From Bacteroidaceae bacterium (lineage in GTDB: Bacteria > Bacteroidota > Bacteroidia > Bacteroidales > Bacteroidaceae), in the NCBI GenBank assembly GCA_017416805.1, contig JAFQBB010000002.1, positions 1 to 32,310 of the forward strand: DNA of 32,310 nucleotides. The letters run 5' to 3'. The notes beneath the pieces are model-generated. The model was not told the DNA's origin. It saw only the letters and a list, made by a program, of their open reading frames with translations, and did no database searches. This document shows positions 2,235 through 32,310 of this stretch, piece after piece. The position numbers were made by a program, and so were the translations under genes. The first letter of the stretch is position 1; each line of letters begins with the position of its first letter.

Positions 2235-2999
2235 ATGGGAAGACTATATGTAGTACCTACTCCGGTAGGAAACATGGAAGACATGACCTTCCGTGCCATC
2301 CGCATCCTGAAAGAGGCGGACCTGATTCTTGCCGAAGATACACGTACATCAGCCAAACTACTTAAACATTACGAAATCAAGGCCCCGATGCAATCGCACC
2401 ATAAGTTCAATGAACATCAAATGGTGGAGAGCGTTGTTAATCGTATAAGAGGGGGCGCGACTGTGGCTCTTATCAGTGATGCAGGGACTCCGGGAATCAG
2501 CGATCCGGGTTTTCTGGTTGTCAGGGAGTGTGTGCGTGCCGGAATCGAGGTGCAATGTCTGCCTGGTGCAACGGCCTTTGTCCCTGCACTGGTCAGCAGT
2601 TCATTGCCTTGTGAGCGTTTTTGCTTTGAGGGATTCCTGCCACAAAAGAAAGGACGCATGAGCCGACTGACAGCATTGCAACAGGAAGAGCGCACCATGA
2701 TTTTTTATGAATCACCTTACCGATTGGTGAAGACGCTGACCCAATTTGCAGAATATTACGGTGCAGGAAGACAGGTGGCAGTCTGTCGGGAGATATCAAA
2801 GATACATGAAGAGTGTGTGCGAGGAACATTGAGTGAAGCAACAGAGCACTTCAAGAAGCACGAGCCAAAAGGTGAAATCGTAATTTTGCTGGCAGGATGC
2901 CATAACAAAGAAAACATCATAGAGGAGGCCATACAAGAACAGGCTGAAGAAGGTGAAAAAAGAAAATCATCATACAAACGAAAAAAGAACAAAGATTGA
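2235..2999 (+). CDS. rsmI: 16S rRNA 2'-O-ribose C1402 methyltransferase RsmI
   Basis: The protein has 254 residues from the ATG at 2235. It belongs to the tetrapyrrole-methylase fold family and methylates the ribose of C1402 in 16S rRNA using S-adenosylmethionine. Family motifs in order are LYVVPTPVGNMEDMTFRAI at the N-terminus, AEDTRTSAKLLKHY, SDAGTPGISDPG, CLPGATAFVPALVSS, FEGFLPQKKGR and YESPYRLVKTL. The C-terminal tail (KRKSSYKRKKNKD) is lysine-rich and not part of the core fold. An earlier in-frame start at 2169 was rejected because the -7 box lies downstream of it and the family begins at MGRLYVVPTP. The lipoprotein gene starts 6 bases after the stop, so the two are probably co-transcribed. 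Confidence 0.95.
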   Translation: MGRLYVVPTPVGNMEDMTFRAIRILKEADLILAEDTRTSAKLLKHYEIKAPMQSHHKFNEHQMVESVVNRIRGGATVALISDAGTPGISDPGFLVVRECVRAGIEVQCLPGATAFVPALVSSSLPCERFCFEGFLPQKKGRMSRLTALQQEERTMIFYESPYRLVKTLTQFAEYYGAGRQVAVCREISKIHEECVRGTLSEATEHFKKHEPKGEIVILLAGCHNKENIIEEAIQEQAEEGEKRKSSYKRKKNKD

Positions 3000-3005
3000 C
3001 AAGGT

Positions 3006-3833
3006 ATGAAAAAATTAGTATTACTGGTCGCTTGCGCAATAGCTTTTGCCGCTTGTGACAACTTGGAAAGAAAGAACAAACAATTGCAGGAACAGAATGA
3101 TTCCTTACAAATTGCACTCACCCAAAGCAATGCCGAACTGGAGCAGTTTATGGGAACTTTCAGCGAGATTCAAGAGGGATTCCGTCTCATCACTGAGGCT
3201 GAAGGACGAATCAATGCCCAGCGTGAGGGTGTTATCTCATCTGTGGATCAGGTGAAAGCCGACATGGAATTCATTGCACAAAAGATGAAGAGCAACCGTG
3301 AACAGATAACCCAATTACAACAAAAACTGAAGAACAGTAACAATGCTTCGGCACAATTGAAGAAGACATTGGAGCAACTGACGGCACAACTGGTAGAGAA
3401 GTCCCAACAAATAGAGGCCTTACAAGCTGACCTGGCAGCCAGAAACATACGTATTGCCACATTGGATGAGACGGTTGCAGGACTCCGTGCTGACAGCTTG
3501 GCCAAGGAACGGACTCTTGATGCCCAAGACAAGGCACTGAACACTGCATGGTTTGTCTATGGGACAAAGAAGGAACTGAAAGAACAGAAAATCCTGCAAA
3601 AAGGTGACGTCCTACAGAATGACGACTTCAATAAGGACTATTTCACCCAAATAGACATCCGCAAGGATACGGAGTTCAAACTCTATTCCAAGAGTGCCAA
3701 ATTGCTTACTACACATCCCGAGGGTTCCTATATTCTGACTAAAGATTCCAAAGGGCAATACATCCTCCGTATCACTGACCCCACCCGTTTCTGGAGTGTG
3801 TCACGCTATCTTGTGATACAGGTAAGAGTATAA
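3006..3833 (+). CDS. Coiled-coil lipoprotein of unknown function
   Basis: A 275-residue protein with a lipoprotein signal (MKKLVLLVACAIAFAAC), the lipid-carrying cysteine being Cys17. Residues about 20-175 are rich in Q, E, K, L and A in heptad-like order (NKQLQEQNDSLQIALTQSNA; LKKTLEQLTAQLVEKSQQ), which predicts a long coiled coil. The last 90 residues form a compact domain (WFVYGTKKELKEQKILQKG; DPTRFWSVSRYLVIQV). I do not recognise a named function. The protein resembles Bacteroidetes periplasmic lipoproteins annotated only as hypothetical. It follows rsmI by 6 bases in a probable operon and converges with dacB, 33 bases away. There is no strong acidic surface-export signal after the cysteine (DNLE), so the inner face of the outer membrane is the likelier location. 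Confidence 0.8.
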   Translation: MKKLVLLVACAIAFAACDNLERKNKQLQEQNDSLQIALTQSNAELEQFMGTFSEIQEGFRLITEAEGRINAQREGVISSVDQVKADMEFIAQKMKSNREQITQLQQKLKNSNNASAQLKKTLEQLTAQLVEKSQQIEALQADLAARNIRIATLDETVAGLRADSLAKERTLDAQDKALNTAWFVYGTKKELKEQKILQKGDVLQNDDFNKDYFTQIDIRKDTEFKLYSKSAKLLTTHPEGSYILTKDSKGQYILRITDPTRFWSVSRYLVIQVRV

Positions 3834-16612: not shown

Positions 16613-16643
16613 ATAATTGCATTTCATAAGAAATCCTCTATAG

Positions 16644-16713
16644 AAAAAAAAGAAGAATGCTAATCTTCACCGTATAAGAATCGTATTCTTAGCCGTACAA
16701 GATTGGCATTCTT
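16644..16713 (-). terminator. Terminator-like hairpin between the two secreted-protein genes
   Basis: AAGAATGCTAATCTT (16653-16667) pairs with AAGATTGGCATTCTT (16699-16713), 14 of 15 positions matching. A second dyad, AAGAAT/ATTCTT, lies in the loop. Read leftward eight T residues (16651-16644) follow. The T-run ends only 31 bases before the next ATG and no promoter is visible in between, so it may be a partial terminator or attenuator. Confidence 0.75.
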
Positions 16714-16727
16714 CCAATAAAACCTAT

Positions 16728-19370
16728 TTATCTTCTCATTTTCACCGTCTGTAATCCCTCAGCAGTCTCTACCTTCACCAAGTAGATGCCTGCAGGCAGT
16801 GCGTTCAAGTCAAGCACATCCGTAGCCTCGGCCACCACAGCACCTTGTGTGTTGAAAGCTGTCAAACGGGCAGGAACGGCAGCCAATACGATGCCACCCT
16901 TCACAGTCACCTGTGCATTGGCCATAGTACCCTCAATGCCCTGTGCCTTAATCACGGCTTTACAGTCAACACTGATCATCTCACTGTTGGCCTTGCCATA
17001 TTTATATACAGACTGGATATAAAGGTTCTTCAAGCCAGTGTAACCACAGTTCACCTCCCAAGTGAGGGCCTGACCGTCAGTCTCCAGATTGTCAGCCGCC
17101 TTCATCTTCTCCAGCATGACGTTGTAGCGCTGGAAGGCAAGACCTGCCGTATCGGCCGGAGCAGTCCACTCGATGGTGGCATAATAGATTCCATCCTCCA
17201 TGCGGGCACCGGTACATTTCAGTCCAGTTGCTGCAGGCAACTCCACATAGTGTCTGTATGTCACCACGTTAGAGATGTTCAGAGCTTCCTCGGTCTCCAT
17301 CAGTTCGTTGATGAGGACAGTCTGCACGTAGTAGTCGTAAATACCGTTCTTCACTCCTTCATCAACATAAGTCAGTTTGCCATCCACAGCATCAGTGGCA
17401 TTCAGTCGTGCCAGAAGGATACCATGGCGATAGATGTCAAAGGCAATGGTACCGGTAACAGCAGCCTCGGGCAAAGTTATAATGAGCGCAACACTATTCG
17501 GTTCCAAAGCCTCGTTGGCTGCTGCAACAAGCAACTCGGCCACCGCCTCGGGATTCATCTCGCTCAATTCTGTGATGGTATAGGTAGATTCGTTCACCCA
17601 AGCACCATTAGCGGCCAATGTCTGCACTTGCTCCTTAGTGCGGTTGGTATTGCCATTGTCATAGGTATATACGGTACGCTTCTCGCCCTGGTCGAAACCA
17701 TAGAACCATTCGTGTGTCCAATGAACCATCACTGTATCGTTGGCTGTTGCCTCATCATCGTAGTAGGTCCAGGTTTCCATCTTCACGACGGCAGTGTCCT
17801 TCAGTGTCCATGTGCTCAATGCAGTCTTGCGTCCCTTTTCATCGTAAGTATAGACTCCAAAGTACTTGTCACCTTCATTCTCGCCGGTACTATGGATAGA
17901 ATCGGGCTGGCCGAAGGCATTGAAGGCACTGTATGTGATCTCGTACATGTTGTAGAAGTCACCTTCATGGGTGTTCCAATAATCGGGCAACTGCTTGATT
18001 TCCTTTACAAGCTGACCAGCCTCGTTGTACTCGTACACCATGCTGTAACCACCAATCTGCAGGTTTTCCTTCACCATACGGCCGGCTTCATCGTATTCGT
18101 ATGTCACAGTATCCTGATTTTCTATGAAGGCCAAATCCGTACCATCGTGGATTCCATATTTCTCGCTGGCAGTCATAGTGAGCTGTCCGTTCTCGTTGTA
18201 AGTGTAGCCCTTGAAGTACTCAATTTCCCACTTTGAAGCAGCACCGGTAGCGGCATCTGCATAACTATAGCCATAAGTAGCCTCACGCTGTAGGCGGTTC
18301 TCGCCGTCGTAGAGCGACACCTTTTTGTGGGTCATCACTCCGATGCGCTGCCCCATGTGGTCACCGTATGTCTCCACCACCTTCACCAGGCGGGTATCGG
18401 GGAAAGGTTCAGGATTGATAGGTTCATCCTCTTTCACTACCGCATCAGCAGTTGACTTGGCAAAACAGATACCTACCGCTTCACCAAGGAAAAGCTTGGC
18501 ATCGTCAGCACCCGCCTCGCCCGATCCGGCAGCTGTCACCAATGTGGCGGTCTTGGTGGCAATGTCAAGGGTAATCAGGTGAGACTGCCCGGTGATATAG
18601 AGAACTCCTTCGTGCAGGCCCAACGAACTGGTGCTGAAAGTGGTTGTCAGTTTTACTTTAGCTGTGGATTCTTCAGTGAACACATCGCTCATAGTATTGG
18701 TACTAAGGTTGTAGCTATACAGGTTGACCTGCTTGTACCAGAACTTAAACATCATACTCTCTCCAGTTTTCGGAGTATATTGTCCCATACCCACCATGTA
18801 GAGATTGCCGTTGCCATCGGGGGTAATACCGGCAATGTTATAGTTTGTAGCCTCCTCGGGAAGGGTTGCAATCACCGTTATCCGTCCGTTGTTAGGGTTT
18901 ACGGTACAGAGTTGGAGCATGTACTGTCCGTCTCCACTCTCTTCATCAGTCACTACAAACTCTTTCTTCAGAAGATAGAGTTTTTTGCTCTGCTCATCGT
19001 AGCACATATCAATAGCATAAGTCAGCTCGTAACTACGTCCCAATATCACCTTGTTTCCTGTTTTCATGTTCAGCGAGCAGAACATGTTCGTAGTGCTTCC
19101 CGATGCAGTTTCTGTCTCCATGTAGGCATAATAGACAGAATCTGCCAGTGTGCCCAACGCTCCGAAGCATCCCTCGGTTGTGTCGGCATAGCAGATTTCG
19201 TTAACAATCCAAGGGGTTGTTACATCAAATGCATAGATGGCACCTTTTCCATCATTGACTTTCTTGTTGGCACTACCTGTGAGGATGTAGGCTGTTGTTT
19301 GTGCACAAGCAAACGTGGCAACCGTCAGGCAGAGGGTTGCCATCAGTAATCTTTTGTAAAACTTTCTCAT
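16728..19370 (-). CDS. Large secreted protein: propeller-like, YD-type repeats, sorting-tail-like C-terminus
   Basis: An 880-residue protein from the ATG at 19370 (MRKFYKRLLMATLCL; an ATG at 19379 adds three residues). The signal peptide ends near CAQ. The N-terminal third has propeller-like strands (YILTGSANKKV, KLYLLKKEFVV, GNLYMVGMGQY). The middle contains several YD-type repeats (YTYNENGQLTM, YEYDEAGRMVKENLQ, YEYNEAGQLVKEIKQ, YTYDEKGRKTAL), a pattern found in Rhs/YD proteins and in some Bacteroidetes secreted proteins. Fn3-like segments follow, then a C-terminal tail (LTAFNTQGAVVAEAT, LDLNALPAGIYLVKVETAEG, VKMRR) like type IX sorting domains. Function unknown; no toxin module is seen at the C-terminus. 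It shares architecture with the downstream gene. Confidence 0.82.
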   Translation of the reverse strand: MRKFYKRLLMATLCLTVATFACAQTTAYILTGSANKKVNDGKGAIYAFDVTTPWIVNEICYADTTEGCFGALGTLADSVYYAYMETETASGSTTNMFCSLNMKTGNKVILGRSYELTYAIDMCYDEQSKKLYLLKKEFVVTDEESGDGQYMLQLCTVNPNNGRITVIATLPEEATNYNIAGITPDGNGNLYMVGMGQYTPKTGESMMFKFWYKQVNLYSYNLSTNTMSDVFTEESTAKVKLTTTFSTSSLGLHEGVLYITGQSHLITLDIATKTATLVTAAGSGEAGADDAKLFLGEAVGICFAKSTADAVVKEDEPINPEPFPDTRLVKVVETYGDHMGQRIGVMTHKKVSLYDGENRLQREATYGYSYADAATGAASKWEIEYFKGYTYNENGQLTMTASEKYGIHDGTDLAFIENQDTVTYEYDEAGRMVKENLQIGGYSMVYEYNEAGQLVKEIKQLPDYWNTHEGDFYNMYEITYSAFNAFGQPDSIHSTGENEGDKYFGVYTYDEKGRKTALSTWTLKDTAVVKMETWTYYDDEATANDTVMVHWTHEWFYGFDQGEKRTVYTYDNGNTNRTKEQVQTLAANGAWVNESTYTITELSEMNPEAVAELLVAAANEALEPNSVALIITLPEAAVTGTIAFDIYRHGILLARLNATDAVDGKLTYVDEGVKNGIYDYYVQTVLINELMETEEALNISNVVTYRHYVELPAATGLKCTGARMEDGIYYATIEWTAPADTAGLAFQRYNVMLEKMKAADNLETDGQALTWEVNCGYTGLKNLYIQSVYKYGKANSEMISVDCKAVIKAQGIEGTMANAQVTVKGGIVLAAVPARLTAFNTQGAVVAEATDVLDLNALPAGIYLVKVETAEGLQTVKMRR

Positions 19371-27940: not shown

Positions 27941-28159
27941 ATTGATTTACCGCCTTGGGGAAAACCGCTTTTGGGTTTCTACCTTCTTTTCCTCGGTCAT
28001 CTTGCTGGAGATGGTAAGGTCTTCAATGGTCAGTTTGTCCGTCCATGTAGGATTGATTACCGCCTTGGGGAATCGCTTCTGTATTTCTGCTTTCTCTTCC
28101 TCGGTCATCGTGCCGGAGATGGTAAAGTTCTCGATGGTCAGTTTGTCCATCCATGTGGG
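27941..28159. repeat. Tandem duplication (about 108 bp) in the DUF4419 gene
   Basis: Two copies encode PTWMDKLTIENFTISGTMTE... and PTWTDKLTIEDLTISSKMTE.... The copy nearest the stop has extra bases (TTTTCCCC in place of TTCCCC on the minus strand), which shifts the frame from KRFPKAVIN to KRFSPRR and a stop. Confidence 0.85.
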
Positions 28160-29449
28160 AAGGACCACTTTGCCGGTGAAATCGAGTTTCAGGCGGTTGA
28201 TGTGCTTCAGCTGGGCAAGCACTGTGGGAACCTCTTTGATGCGGATGTATATTGTTCCTTTTTCGTTTTTCTTTTGGAGGTCGCTGAGGGTGCTCTCCTC
28301 ATCGTCAATGCGTACGAGCCAGCCTATTTTCGGTATCAGAGCGTTGGCTATGGTGTCTTCTTCGGCACCGATGAATCCGGCCCACAGTTCCATGGGGGTC
28401 TCGCGGGCCACGCTTCCTTGTGCAGGGTCTATAATCTGGTATTTGAAATCCACCCGCACGTGGTCGGCCGGCATATTTTGGGTATGGGGAATCTTGTCCA
28501 GTGTCACCCCCTGTTCGTTGGGGAACAGTTTCAGCACCCATCCGTCCAGTTCGGTCGGTTTGCTGGGGTCGCAACCTCCGCCTTTCAGCTTGGGAAGCCG
28601 CACCTCCTTGACCATCCTTTGCCAAAAGAGCTGGTCGGGCTTTCCCTTGGCTGTACGGACAAACTCGGTCAGAATCGGTTCCAGTTCCTCTATCCATTCC
28701 GTCAGACCGTATGGCTTCAAGCGTTTGGCCTTGTCGAGCACCAGTTGCCAGTCTTCGGGTGTACCTTGGAGTGTCACACTGGGGATGCCGCACGCAAGGT
28801 ACATGACCACGTACTCGAAGTAGGACTTCACACTCTCCATCAGCGTGATTTCCGAAGCAATGCGTGTCACCGGAGTGGTGGTGGTGAAGTCGGCGGCGAT
28901 GGTCTTGGCAATCTCCCCTTTCGTGTATTTCTGGATAGAGTCGGAGAAGTCGCCCATGATTTTCTCCCAATCGGGATTGCCTGTCAGCAGTTCTTCGGGT
29001 GTTATTACCACCAAGTCCATCTTCCCATCGTGCCCAACCAACTGGGGACGCAGCTCCTCGGGGTGGGCATTCACGTAGCGGGCAAAGCCCTGACTGATGA
29101 GCAGCCATATCATGTCGGGTGAAAGTACAAGCGACTGGTGGTTGGCATAGGCTGTGACTACGGTACGAAAGAAAGCGTCCTTCTTTCCGAGGTATCGGAG
29201 TTCCTTTTCGTCTGCAAAGCTGGTGGCTACGATATTCGGCTCACCAGGAAGGTCGTCGGGAGAGAGAATGTACTTGGCCAATTTCTTCCCATCCATCAGT
29301 ATCTGTTTTCCTTTAATGGGTTTCAATCCTTCATCTACCACAAAGGTGATGCTTCCTTTTTTCTTTTCGATAATCTTATCCTTCTTGGCGGCTTGTCCTG
29401 TCAACAGCGTGGTGGTGAGCAACGCAATGATGACAAATACTCTTTTCAT
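27947..29449 (-). CDS. DUF4419 protein with C-terminal leucine-rich-like repeats
   Basis: A 500-residue protein from the ATG at 29449 (MKRVFVIIALLTTTLLTGQAA), with a signal peptide. The main domain (ANHQSLVLSPDMIWLLISQG, FTTTTPVTRIASEITLMES, YFEYVVMYLACGIPSVTL, MELWAGFIGAEED) matches DUF4419, a family of unknown function found widely in bacteria and fungi. The end has an ...LPTWMDKLTIENFTISG-MTEEEKAEIQKRFPKAVI unit followed by a near copy. MTEEE...RFPKA resembles the cap of leucine-rich repeats. The last copy is frameshifted and ends early. An ATG at 29461 would add four residues. Confidence 0.85.
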   Translation of the reverse strand: MKRVFVIIALLTTTLLTGQAAKKDKIIEKKKGSITFVVDEGLKPIKGKQILMDGKKLAKYILSPDDLPGEPNIVATSFADEKELRYLGKKDAFFRTVVTAYANHQSLVLSPDMIWLLISQGFARYVNAHPEELRPQLVGHDGKMDLVVITPEELLTGNPDWEKIMGDFSDSIQKYTKGEIAKTIAADFTTTTPVTRIASEITLMESVKSYFEYVVMYLACGIPSVTLQGTPEDWQLVLDKAKRLKPYGLTEWIEELEPILTEFVRTAKGKPDQLFWQRMVKEVRLPKLKGGGCDPSKPTELDGWVLKLFPNEQGVTLDKIPHTQNMPADHVRVDFKYQIIDPAQGSVARETPMELWAGFIGAEEDTIANALIPKIGWLVRIDDEESTLSDLQKKNEKGTIYIRIKEVPTVLAQLKHINRLKLDFTGKVVLPTWMDKLTIENFTISGTMTEEEKAEIQKRFPKAVINPTWTDKLTIEDLTISSKMTEEKKVETQKRFSPRR

Positions 29450-29480
29450 GATAATTCTCATTAGTTTGTTAATGTGGGTG

Positions 29481-30355: not shown

Positions 30356-30865
30356 TCATTTTCTTTTGTGGTAGATTTCCCAAAGTTTTTGTCTCGCCTT
30401 TGCCACTTTAGCGCGGACAGTGGCCTCAGTGGTGCCCAAAATGGCCGCCATCTCTTGGTACGACAGTCCGTCGATGCCCTTCATCTGCAATACGGCACGT
30501 GCACCGGTGGGTAACCGTTTCAGGCACTCCATCATCCAGTCCTCCTGTTCCCGGTTTATCAGTCGGGCTTCCGGCGATGGACTTTCGTCTTCCTCCATTG
30601 TCCCAGCCGGCCAGGTGCGTTGGCGCAACAGGTCGGTGCACAAGTTCTTCAGTACCCGCATGGCAAAGGGCGGCAATTCGTCCATCTTTCCCAACCGTTG
30701 GCGCACTGTCCAGCAGCGCATCAGGGCCTCTTGCACGGCATCCTCCGCCTCGTCAGCATCGTGCAGATAGCCGATGGCCGTCTGTAGCAGCCAGTGACGG
30801 ATTCTCTGCACGATCTTTTCAAAGTCAGCGGTGTCGTGGGTGCATGTAGTTTCTTTGGTTTTCAT
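30356..30865 (-). CDS. ECF-family RNA polymerase sigma factor
   Basis: A 169-residue sigma-70-type factor from the ATG at 30865 (MKTKETTCTHD). Region 2 covers about residues 18-80 (LHDADEAEDAVQEALMRCW; LPPFAMRVLKNLCTDLLRQR). Region 4 with its helix-turn-helix is about 108-160 (LKRLPTGARAVLQMKGIDGL; SYQEMAAILGTTEATVRAKV). There is no region 3, as expected for ECF factors. The frame is open upstream to 30964, but those 33 residues are not sigma-like. It is the first gene of a two-gene unit with the anti-sigma-like gene. The start codon lies inside a 16-bp perfect palindrome. Confidence 0.93.
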   Translation of the reverse strand: MKTKETTCTHDTADFEKIVQRIRHWLLQTAIGYLHDADEAEDAVQEALMRCWTVRQRLGKMDELPPFAMRVLKNLCTDLLRQRTWPAGTMEEDESPSPEARLINREQEDWMMECLKRLPTGARAVLQMKGIDGLSYQEMAAILGTTEATVRAKVAKARQKLWEIYHKRK

Positions 30866-30876: not shown

Positions 30877-30970
30877 TCTTTTTGCAAAGAAAACGAAAAA
30901 GGTGGGGAAACGCACCATTAAGGAGTGTTAAATATTCCTTCTCCAAGGAATTCCTTAATAGCATTTCTAA

Positions 30971-30998
30971 TTTTGCCTAACAGAAAAATCTGTTTGCC
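30971..30998. repeat. Left arm of a 28-bp imperfect inverted repeat
   Basis: Blocks TTTTGCC, ACAGAAAA and GTTTGCC match the reverse complement of 31151-31178 at 24 of 28 positions with no gaps. TTTGCCT recurs at 30972, 30993 and 31014, exactly 21 bases apart. Confidence 0.85.
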
Positions 30999-31033
30999 TG
31001 ACCCTTTTTCCCGTTTGCCTTTAGTCAAAACTT

Positions 31034-31117
31034 TAATCATCGACGATAATCATATAATCATCGTCGATAATCATATAGTCATCGACGATGATTATGTAAA
31101 CATCGACGATGATTAAA
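31034..31117. repeat. Four tandem 21-bp near-palindromic units
   Basis: Units start at 31034, 31055, 31076 and 31097. Each centres on ATCATCGACGAT or its near variant (unit 2 has TCGTCGA; units 3 and 4 end GATGATT). AATCATCG/CGATGATT around a single base is the idealised palindrome. A 21-bp period is two helical turns, so sites would face the same side of the DNA. No gene covers 30866-31294. Confidence 0.95.
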
Positions 31118-31150
31118 CTTTTCTCTTCGCTCTGATTAAAAAATACAAGC

Positions 31151-31178
31151 GGCAAACGGACTTTTCTGTGGGGCAAAA
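31151..31178. repeat. Right arm of the 28-bp imperfect inverted repeat
   Basis: Reverse complement of 30971-30998 at 24 of 28 positions: GGCAAAC, TTTTCTGT and GGCAAAA blocks. The two arms are symmetric about 31074.5, while the array is symmetric about 31075.5. Confidence 0.85.
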
Positions 31179-31241
31179 CCGAGTTCCGACTTAAGATTTA
31201 TCTGTTTATATTTGAGGATTGTGAGAAAATGTAAGATTTTC

Positions 31242-31294: not shown

Positions 31295-32310
31295 ATGAAA
31301 AGAATTTTTATCTTAGTGGCGGCTTGTCTGAGTATGATCTTGTCCGCCTGTGTACAAACGAACAAAACGAGTGGTACCGAACAGACTCAGAGTGAACAAC
31401 CCGAAAAGACGCGCCGCTTCCGTACGGACATCCCATTGGACAGCATCCGCCTGAGCGACCCCTGCATCCTGGCCGACAAGAAAACCAACATGTACTACAT
31501 GACCGGTACTGGCGGACTCCTGTGGAAGAGCAAGGACTTGGCCTTGTGGGAAGGACCTTATCGCGTGGCATTGACCGACACGGCTTCGTGGATGGGCCGT
31601 CGTCCGCAAATATGGGCGGCTGAGTTGCACGAGTATCAAGGAAAATATTACTACTTTGCCACCTTCACCAACGAAGCCATCAAGATTGACACCGTGCGCG
31701 GCAACGTCATCCCCCGCCGTGCCAGCCACGTGCTTGTGAGCGACAAGGCCGAAGGTCCTTACCGCCCGATGGCCGACCCGACTTACTTGCCCGACAACCA
31801 GCCGACGCTGGACGGAACCTTTTGGGTGGATACCGACGGCAAGCCTTACATGGTCTATTGTGGAGAATGGCTGCAAAACTGGGACGGCACGATGGAGAAG
31901 ATAGAGTTGAAGCCCGACCTGAGCGGCTCCATCGGCGAAGGCAAACTGATGTTCCGCGCCAGCTCGTGTCCCTGGAGTCGCGAAGTGGAAGACGGCAAGG
32001 TACGTCCCAACAAAGTGACCGACGGACCTTACCTGTTCAAGACCGGCACCGGCCGCTTGGGTATGATATGGACCAGTTGGGTGGACAATGTCTATACACA
32101 GGGAGTTGTCTATTCCGAGAGCGGCACCCTCGATGGTCCTTGGGTACACGAGGCTGAGCCTATCACCCCGCCGAACTTCGGCCACGGTATGCTCTTCCAT
32201 ACCCTCGAAGGCAAATGGCTGATGTCTGTACACAGCCACAAGGATGTGGGCCACTACATCCGCATCCCCAACCTGTTTGAGATTGACCTCTCAGGCGACC
32301 GCCTCGTTGT
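31295..32310 (+). CDS. GH43-type glycoside hydrolase lipoprotein, 3' end beyond window
   Basis: The frame is open for 338 codons to the edge. The lipoprotein signal ends LSAC with Cys19 (MKRIFILVAACLSMILSAC). The body has five-bladed beta-propeller features of GH43: RLSDPCILAD with Asp55 as likely catalytic base, MYYMTGTGG, IWAAELHEYQGKYYYFATFT, GTFWVDTDGKPYMVYCGEW, TDGPYLFKTGTGRLGMIWTSW and GVVYSESGTLDGPW. At the usual general-acid position (Glu-Gly-Pro in many GH43 enzymes) this protein has Asp243-Gly-Pro. GH43 enzymes typically release arabinose, xylose or galactose from plant or host glycans; the substrate is not predictable here. It is divergent from the ECF sigma gene across the symmetric repeat region. 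Confidence 0.9.
   Translation, partial: MKRIFILVAACLSMILSACVQTNKTSGTEQTQSEQPEKTRRFRTDIPLDSIRLSDPCILADKKTNMYYMTGTGGLLWKSKDLALWEGPYRVALTDTASWMGRRPQIWAAELHEYQGKYYYFATFTNEAIKIDTVRGNVIPRRASHVLVSDKAEGPYRPMADPTYLPDNQPTLDGTFWVDTDGKPYMVYCGEWLQNWDGTMEKIELKPDLSGSIGEGKLMFRASSCPWSREVEDGKVRPNKVTDGPYLFKTGTGRLGMIWTSWVDNVYTQGVVYSESGTLDGPWVHEAEPITPPNFGHGMLFHTLEGKWLMSVHSHKDVGHYIRIPNLFEIDLSGDRLV

Follow-up and report, generated by a model that had tools for sequence, protein, structure and literature searches.

Iterons and multi-site operator arrays consist of helically phased repeats of 21–22 bp that are recognized by one binding protein, and they normally occupy one or few loci per replicon. The NEMIS and ERIC elements, which are 100–200 bp long, are imperfect palindromes of intergenic regions that act as hairpin-forming units. 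REPs are described as stem-loops of 20–40 bp with a tag at one end, and CGTC repeats are reported from five phyla including the Bacteroidetes (PMC3733652). The MITE BrickBuilt of Porphyromonas gingivalis is described as intergenic, present in about twenty copies and built from 23-nt direct repeats numbering 1 to 22.8 units, with a non-repetitive leader and tail (PMC4596501).

The element described here, found at positions 30971–31178 of a contig from a Bacteroidaceae bacterium, resembles each of these systems in part. Like iterons and operator arrays it has helically phased repeated sites; unlike them, it reaches dozens of copies per chromosome and stands beside unrelated genes. It shares its size, imperfect palindromes and intergenic placement with NEMIS and ERIC, from which it differs in that covariation tests count against hairpin units. 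It is a short palindromic dispersed repeat in the manner of REPs and BIMEs, including the CGTC-tagged REPs, but its CG pair is central and is absent in several lineages, and its units come in fours; we found no GTAG or CGTC tetranucleotide tagging an end, and the centres (CGWCG, CASTG or AASTT) are internal to the palindrome. With BrickBuilt it has in common the order Bacteroidales, an intergenic position and a tandem repeat core between flanking units, yet it has four 21-bp quasi-palindromes, periodic arms and one geometry in nine genera, and it shows no 23-nt direct repeat in variable number.

Structure of the symmetric element

The window, that is, the whole stretch of 32,310 bp that was analysed, is the entire contig C50 of a 64-contig draft genome (G000). 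A first-pass annotation had described a 28-bp imperfect inverted repeat enclosing four 21-bp near-palindromes on a common centre, between an ECF sigma gene and a GH43 gene, and every part of that description was recovered (Table 1). The outer repeat matches at 24 of 28 positions (30971–30998 vs. 31151–31178), whereas the best 28-nt inverted match in 200 dinucleotide shuffles of the two flanks (127 and 128 bp) averaged 16.5 and never exceeded 19. Repeat finding gave spacings of 21, 21 and 21 for the near-palindromes, Tandem Repeats Finder reported a period of 21 at 31034–31110, and the core and the outer repeat have the same midpoint (31074.5). The 15-mer ATCATCGACGATNAT, with up to two mismatches, has eight matches in the window (four places, both strands) against 0.21 expected, a number attained by none of 100 shuffles, and at that tolerance the unit motif is absent from the rest of the window. 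Pfam domains Sigma70_r2 and Sigma70_r4_2 identify the sigma factor and PF04616 the GH43 protein. The end of contig C10 overlaps the last 2,030 bp of C50 at 99.4% identity (12 mismatches), which reflects either unmerged contig ends or a mixture of strains in the draft. Elsewhere in the window, a unit of ~108 bp is twice repeated at 27941–28160, overlapping a long ORF (27947–29461), and a short 23-bp tandem repeat (16653–16713) lies between an ORF ending at 16627 and one starting at 16728.

Table 1. Features of the element and its neighbours, in window coordinates
Feature	Position	Strand	Basis
Whole element	30971–31178		24/28 outer inverted repeat; same-genus homologous copies over ~150–245 bp
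Core array, 94 bp, part common to all lineages	31028–31121		4 x 21 bp, edged by AAAC and CTTT; two alignments, models R1 and R2
Unit 1, TAATCA-TCGACGA-TAATCA	31034–31052		Sequence reading, repeat finding
Unit 2, TAATCA-TCGTCGA-TAATCA	31055–31073		Sequence reading, repeat finding
Unit 3, TAGTCA-TCGACGA-TGATTA	31076–31094		Sequence reading, repeat finding
Unit 4, TAAACA-TCGACGA-TGATTA	31097–31115		Sequence reading, repeat finding
Left arm	30971–31027	+	Three TTTGCC modules (30972, 30993, 31014) in 21-bp steps, A-runs between; A-run phasing across copies
Right arm	31122–31178	-	Two inverted GGCAAA modules (31151, 31172), likewise 21 bp apart
ECF sigma factor gene	30356–30865	-	Pfam; start ~105 bp from element
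GH43 lipoprotein gene	31295–32310	+	Pfam on L038:1891–2934; truncated by contig end, complete on contig C10

Dispersal and four-unit geometry

The element belongs to a repeat that is scattered, mostly between genes, in a number of Bacteroidaceae genomes, and is not an operator private to the ECF sigma/GH43 pair. A copy-number search of related genomes, proposed at first pass, found further copies in its own genome, in its genus (g1) and in other genera. Blastn of 30950–31200 against G000 found seven places, which, given the near-identical ends of C50 and C10, amount to about six loci. Clear copies are present in 7 of the 15 g1 genomes (G000, G002, G004, G005, G006, G012 and G014); in the same-genus search G001, G003, G010 and G013 gave weak matches (best E 0.005 to 0.05), and G007, G008, G009 and G011 gave none at E 0.1. 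When the species-genome collection was scanned by pattern, 18 stretches were returned: 17 came from ruminant gut Bacteroidaceae MAGs, and the remaining one (L111, labelled Massilibacillus) was without an array when read and was discarded as a chance match. Of 301 Bacteroidaceae genomes, 57 gave a match of E 0.01 or better to a sequence-only model built from 29 copies (R1), many of these matches being weak, and a mixed model (R2), run on 25 genomes mostly selected for R1 matches, matched 23 of them at E 1e-4 or better. Match counts cover both strands, copies being about half. Carrier genomes differ in copy number, the lowest having about 2 and the highest at least 75 (G021, in which scoring hit its ceiling of 150 candidates), with 65 in G143, ~57 in G106, 41 in G088, 22 in G093, 7 in G000 and two in G012. 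Together with the fetching and reading of 40 matches from other genera, arrays were read in nine genera (g1, g8, g12, g13, g19, g21, g22, g53 and g54).

An order-wide scan with stricter filters and 10 scored candidates per genome matched 4 of 393 genomes at 1e-5. In G000 and G026 (L288, L290) the array was present on reading; the matches in G016 (L236), which is within the family, and in G451 (L289), the sole order-wide match outside Bacteroidaceae, were rejected as longer tandem repeats rather than arrays. These longer repeats, of related period and also caught by the model, are either unrelated or derived. A phage origin was also sought, and no viral contig carries any of four exact array patterns. 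In the open-licence literature we found no earlier description of the element.

Four units spaced 21 bp apart are present in 112 of the 113 copies scored across eight lineages, in a set that omits short or cut copies (L043, L045, L194, L205 (three units) and L070 (no core)), and with models R1 and R2 that favour four-unit arrays. Lineage-specific unit profiles give four units for 111 copies; L257 is out of register and has four by eye, and L251, with three clear units, is the exception. Several of the short or cut copies are located at the end of a contig. On either side of the array, the phases preceding unit 1 and following unit 4 are at background in g1, G021, G143, G106, G104, G165 and G093, and hence show no fifth unit there, and in G088 nine copies are partly out of register in the dyad and phasing scores. 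In L070 (G014, 2991–3059), arm sequence is seen by eye on both sides and the four-unit core is missing.

The plan is nearly constant and the letters are not. A 32-copy alignment has the same 4 x 21 plan with different letters, and reading in other genera gave AATCA with GCASTGC centres in g53, AACGWCGTT in g22, TTCAGCGTCGCTGAA in g21, TTCACCGACGGTGAA in g8 and AATCATAAGTTCTGATT in g54. Most lineages have C-R-N-Y-G at the unit centre, the two main classes being CGWCG and CASTG; G021 and G165 have AASTT. In the arms, AAA runs are enriched at spacings of 21–23 and/or 42–44 bp in seven of eight lineages; the arms of G088 have A-run spacings of 30 and 43 and no 21-bp phasing. The arms of G021 consist of degenerate 22-bp modules which fade over ~100 bp on each side with no sharp end. 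The window has a 24/28 terminal match, but ends differ among copies.

Unit number and helical spacing scarcely change, however much the letters do; together with the phased A-runs and the lack of hairpin conservation documented below, this suggests a nucleoprotein array whose binder would be dimeric. Judged from sequence, there is about an even chance that the element is a phased multi-site docking array for a putative dimeric DNA-binding protein, homogenized by core exchange. The working part would be the four quasi-palindromic sites, two helical turns (21 bp) apart, with their A-run-phased arms (21–23 bp). Several protein dimers would dock along the same face of the helix, and the candidate binder may bend or wrap the DNA. 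Recognition would be lineage- or class-specific, according to the CGWCG, CASTG or AASTT centre, and class switches would arise via recombination between copies in which the core is replaced.

Orthologous loci and probable exchange of cores

Within g1, copies occupy orthologous loci in several species. In the window, all four units of the GH43-locus copy carry TCGWCGA, whereas G012, G005, G002 and G014 have the GCASTGC type; the 7-mers of the window are identical to those of these orthologues at 8–9 of 28 positions, and the arms at 48–52 of 60 in G012, G005 and G002. The class-switch set comprised 20 of the 29 g1 copies and 22 orthologous, non-independent pairs at seven loci, with switches at four (the GH43 copy of G004, L080, lies outside it). 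Outside the 7-mers, same-class orthologues have 63.2 of 66 letters in common (12 pairs), class-switched orthologues 55.6 of 66 (10 pairs, 4 loci) and non-orthologous pairs of different class 56.5 of 66 (65 pairs). The orthologous signal outside the 7-mers is thus lost at class-switched loci, which disfavours in-place co-evolution of the 7-mers alone in g1 and indicates, short of proof, that the whole core was replaced, although outer words linked to class may account for part of the loss. Among the G021 copies, 22 core pairs reach at least 98.5% identity and have arms that are only 58% identical, nearly all other pairs having arms 53–54% identical, and the 31 copies have 26 distinct cores, some of them identical at different loci. 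Recombination between copies would lead to both the exchange and the homogenization of cores.

Two loci show further changes. The GH43 copy of G014 (L068, 1203–1534) retains the right arm (45/60) and differs in the left (23/60), where the adjoining gene is different as well; a rearrangement may have run through the element core here. The divergent intergenic region at a glycosyltransferase locus carries the element in G000, G002 and G005 and is without it in G011 and G012. At this locus in G014 (L285), upstream of the orthologue of L043:1821–2891, three 22-bp direct repeats of another sequence take the place where relatives carry the array; by eye they contain TATCAGCTGAT or a variant, and they are possibly another array type.

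The main rival to the docking array is a MITE-like origin, in which a non-autonomous element with a minisatellite-like core would have been spread by an unseen transposase and would carry the array as a passenger or as a transposase-binding platform; we regard it as possible, if doubtful. The element is short (~150–300 bp), non-coding, dispersed, multi-copy and mostly intergenic, as MITEs are, and it has inverted symmetry and a high copy number in some genomes. The copies of G106 are ~75–95% identical over 140–300 bp, the partial sharing of cores in G021 and the presence or absence at the glycosyltransferase region would suit mobility, and BrickBuilt provides a precedent in the Bacteroidales (PMC4596501). 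Against it, no target duplication was found in the 6 of 9 G106 copies whose ends could be placed, and the longest common end word there is no longer within a copy than between copies (4.0 vs. 4.6; 6 copies). The arms of G021 taper outward, near-identical cores there have dissimilar arms, and the unit number is fixed at four, unlike the variable number given for BrickBuilt. Of the mobile element suggested at first pass, the dispersal, the multiple copies and the absence from one intergenic region in some species are borne out, but those six copies show no target duplication, and core and arms travel separately. It keeps its place as a rival because recombination between copies alone does not explain the first arrival of the element at a locus. 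In G006, three copies (L059, L061 and L064) by eye end at the same ~110-bp flank close to the ends of contigs, which would fit three separate insertions of one insertion sequence next to the array.

Gene context, hairpins and the docking reading

A local multi-site operator serving the divergent ECF sigma and GH43 genes would account for palindromic sites at helical spacing between two gene starts, and in g1 58 of 81 nearby ORFs (at least 90 aa, no more than 700 bp away and including spurious ones) have their starts facing the element, as a promoter-linked regulator would predict. The other neighbours are, however, FtsX-type permeases, a glycosyltransferase, BlaI, a thioredoxin-like lipoprotein, DPP-IV and others. 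The 31 copies of G021 include 14 in tandem, 11 in divergent and 5 in convergent settings, with one unassigned, and a copy is retained upstream of GH43 in G004, G002 and G014 while the neighbour on its other side differs (ORF starts by eye). An operator dedicated to this gene pair is accordingly very improbable: of the first-pass proposal, the idea of multiple protein-binding sites fits, and its tie to one gene pair does not, as copies are dispersed beside unrelated genes. With a simple ORF caller, 30 of the 31 G021 copies lie between called ORFs, and among 20 copies of G143 there are 15 intergenic, 3 inside a called ORF and 2 without an assignment. Positional conservation across genera, considered for neighbours of the recG, rhamnose, PorP and menB kind, showed no excess by blastp and was dropped, with 6 cross-genus clusters among 247 nearest-neighbour proteins vs. 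8 among 294 second and third neighbours.

HU-HIG-like genes, by blastp grouping, adjoin copies L041, L061, L066 and L077 in g1 and L270 in G021, PF18291 being confirmed among them for L077 only. As a candidate binder HU-HIG was rejected, since the family does not track the array across genomes. It is present in 35 of 35 searched genomes, with 7–22 copies in g1 carriers (mean 17.0, 7 genomes) and 8–16 in non-carriers (mean 11.1, 8 genomes), and with few in high-copy array genomes (3 in G106, 3 in G021, 4 in G143 and 6 in G088).

It is very improbable that the element is a structured RNA or a single-strand or cruciform hairpin of the ERIC/NEMIS/REP kind, even though the single-strand core folds strongly compared to shuffles (z -7.4 to -10.3, five of five strands). 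In core-oriented copies, covariation of left and right arms was not above shuffled pairing in any of five lineages, arm identity within a copy being 0.445 vs. 0.470 for shuffled pairing in g1, 0.527 vs. 0.533 in G021, 0.306 vs. 0.314 in G143, 0.385 vs. 0.399 in G104 and 0.635 vs. 0.630 in G106 (p 0.52). Oriented native cores were no more stable than chimeras of sister-copy segments in six of six groups, and less stable in two of them: the fraction of chimera means that lay at or below the native value was 0.97 and 0.99 in g1_GCA and 0.99 and 1.00 in G021. Perfect unit dyads in G021 number 0 of 112, compared with 7.5 by permutation. In oriented copies the avoidance of perfect dyads holds in G021 and g1_GCA and, for linker dyads alone, in g1_TCG; G104 shows it weakly, and in G143 and G106 it falls short of significance; the positive dyad matching at g1 positions 7 and 9 is explained by the mixing of two core classes. 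Arm, dyad and folding tests without copy orientation are biased, and the unoriented dyad and folding forms overstated the effect. Rfam matches are all weak and far below gathering scores. Since there is neither arm covariation nor a gain in native-core stability, quasi-dyad duplex DNA fits better than a conserved hairpin, and a hairpin seems not to be what selection on the array keeps.

The invertible segment or phase-variable promoter also raised at first pass is hardly credible: inverted repeats lie ~150 bp apart, one sigma-70-like match falls inside the element (31022–31050) and one TANNTTTG (30968–30975) straddles its left edge, but sigma-70-like matches are at chance level (2 found, 1.7 expected) and the GH43-locus orthologues have a single orientation, three of four copies agreeing with the window over both arms and G014 by its right arm.

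For the docking array, the role may be chromosome organization, insulation of neighbouring promoters or regulation; as the neighbours have no function in common, we would guess at chromosome organization first. A bolder version, which we think unlikely, would have centromere-like or architectural docking arrays chromosome-wide and specific to the Bacteroidaceae, with a fast-evolving binder and its four-site arrays altering their specificity in step, and with whole cores exchanged between loci as cassettes while the arms stay. Dispersed palindromic repeats are common in general, and the element is ordinary in kind, as a dispersed intergenic palindromic repeat, and unusual in its cross-genus four-site geometry. 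That unit number and helical spacing are fixed despite the turnover of sequence between genera hints at a protein complex that reads geometry. The exchange of cores between stable arms is a natural experiment on the concerted evolution of binding sites, and the array, which marks several lineages of one family of gut commensals, offers a handle for fishing out the DNA-binding protein.
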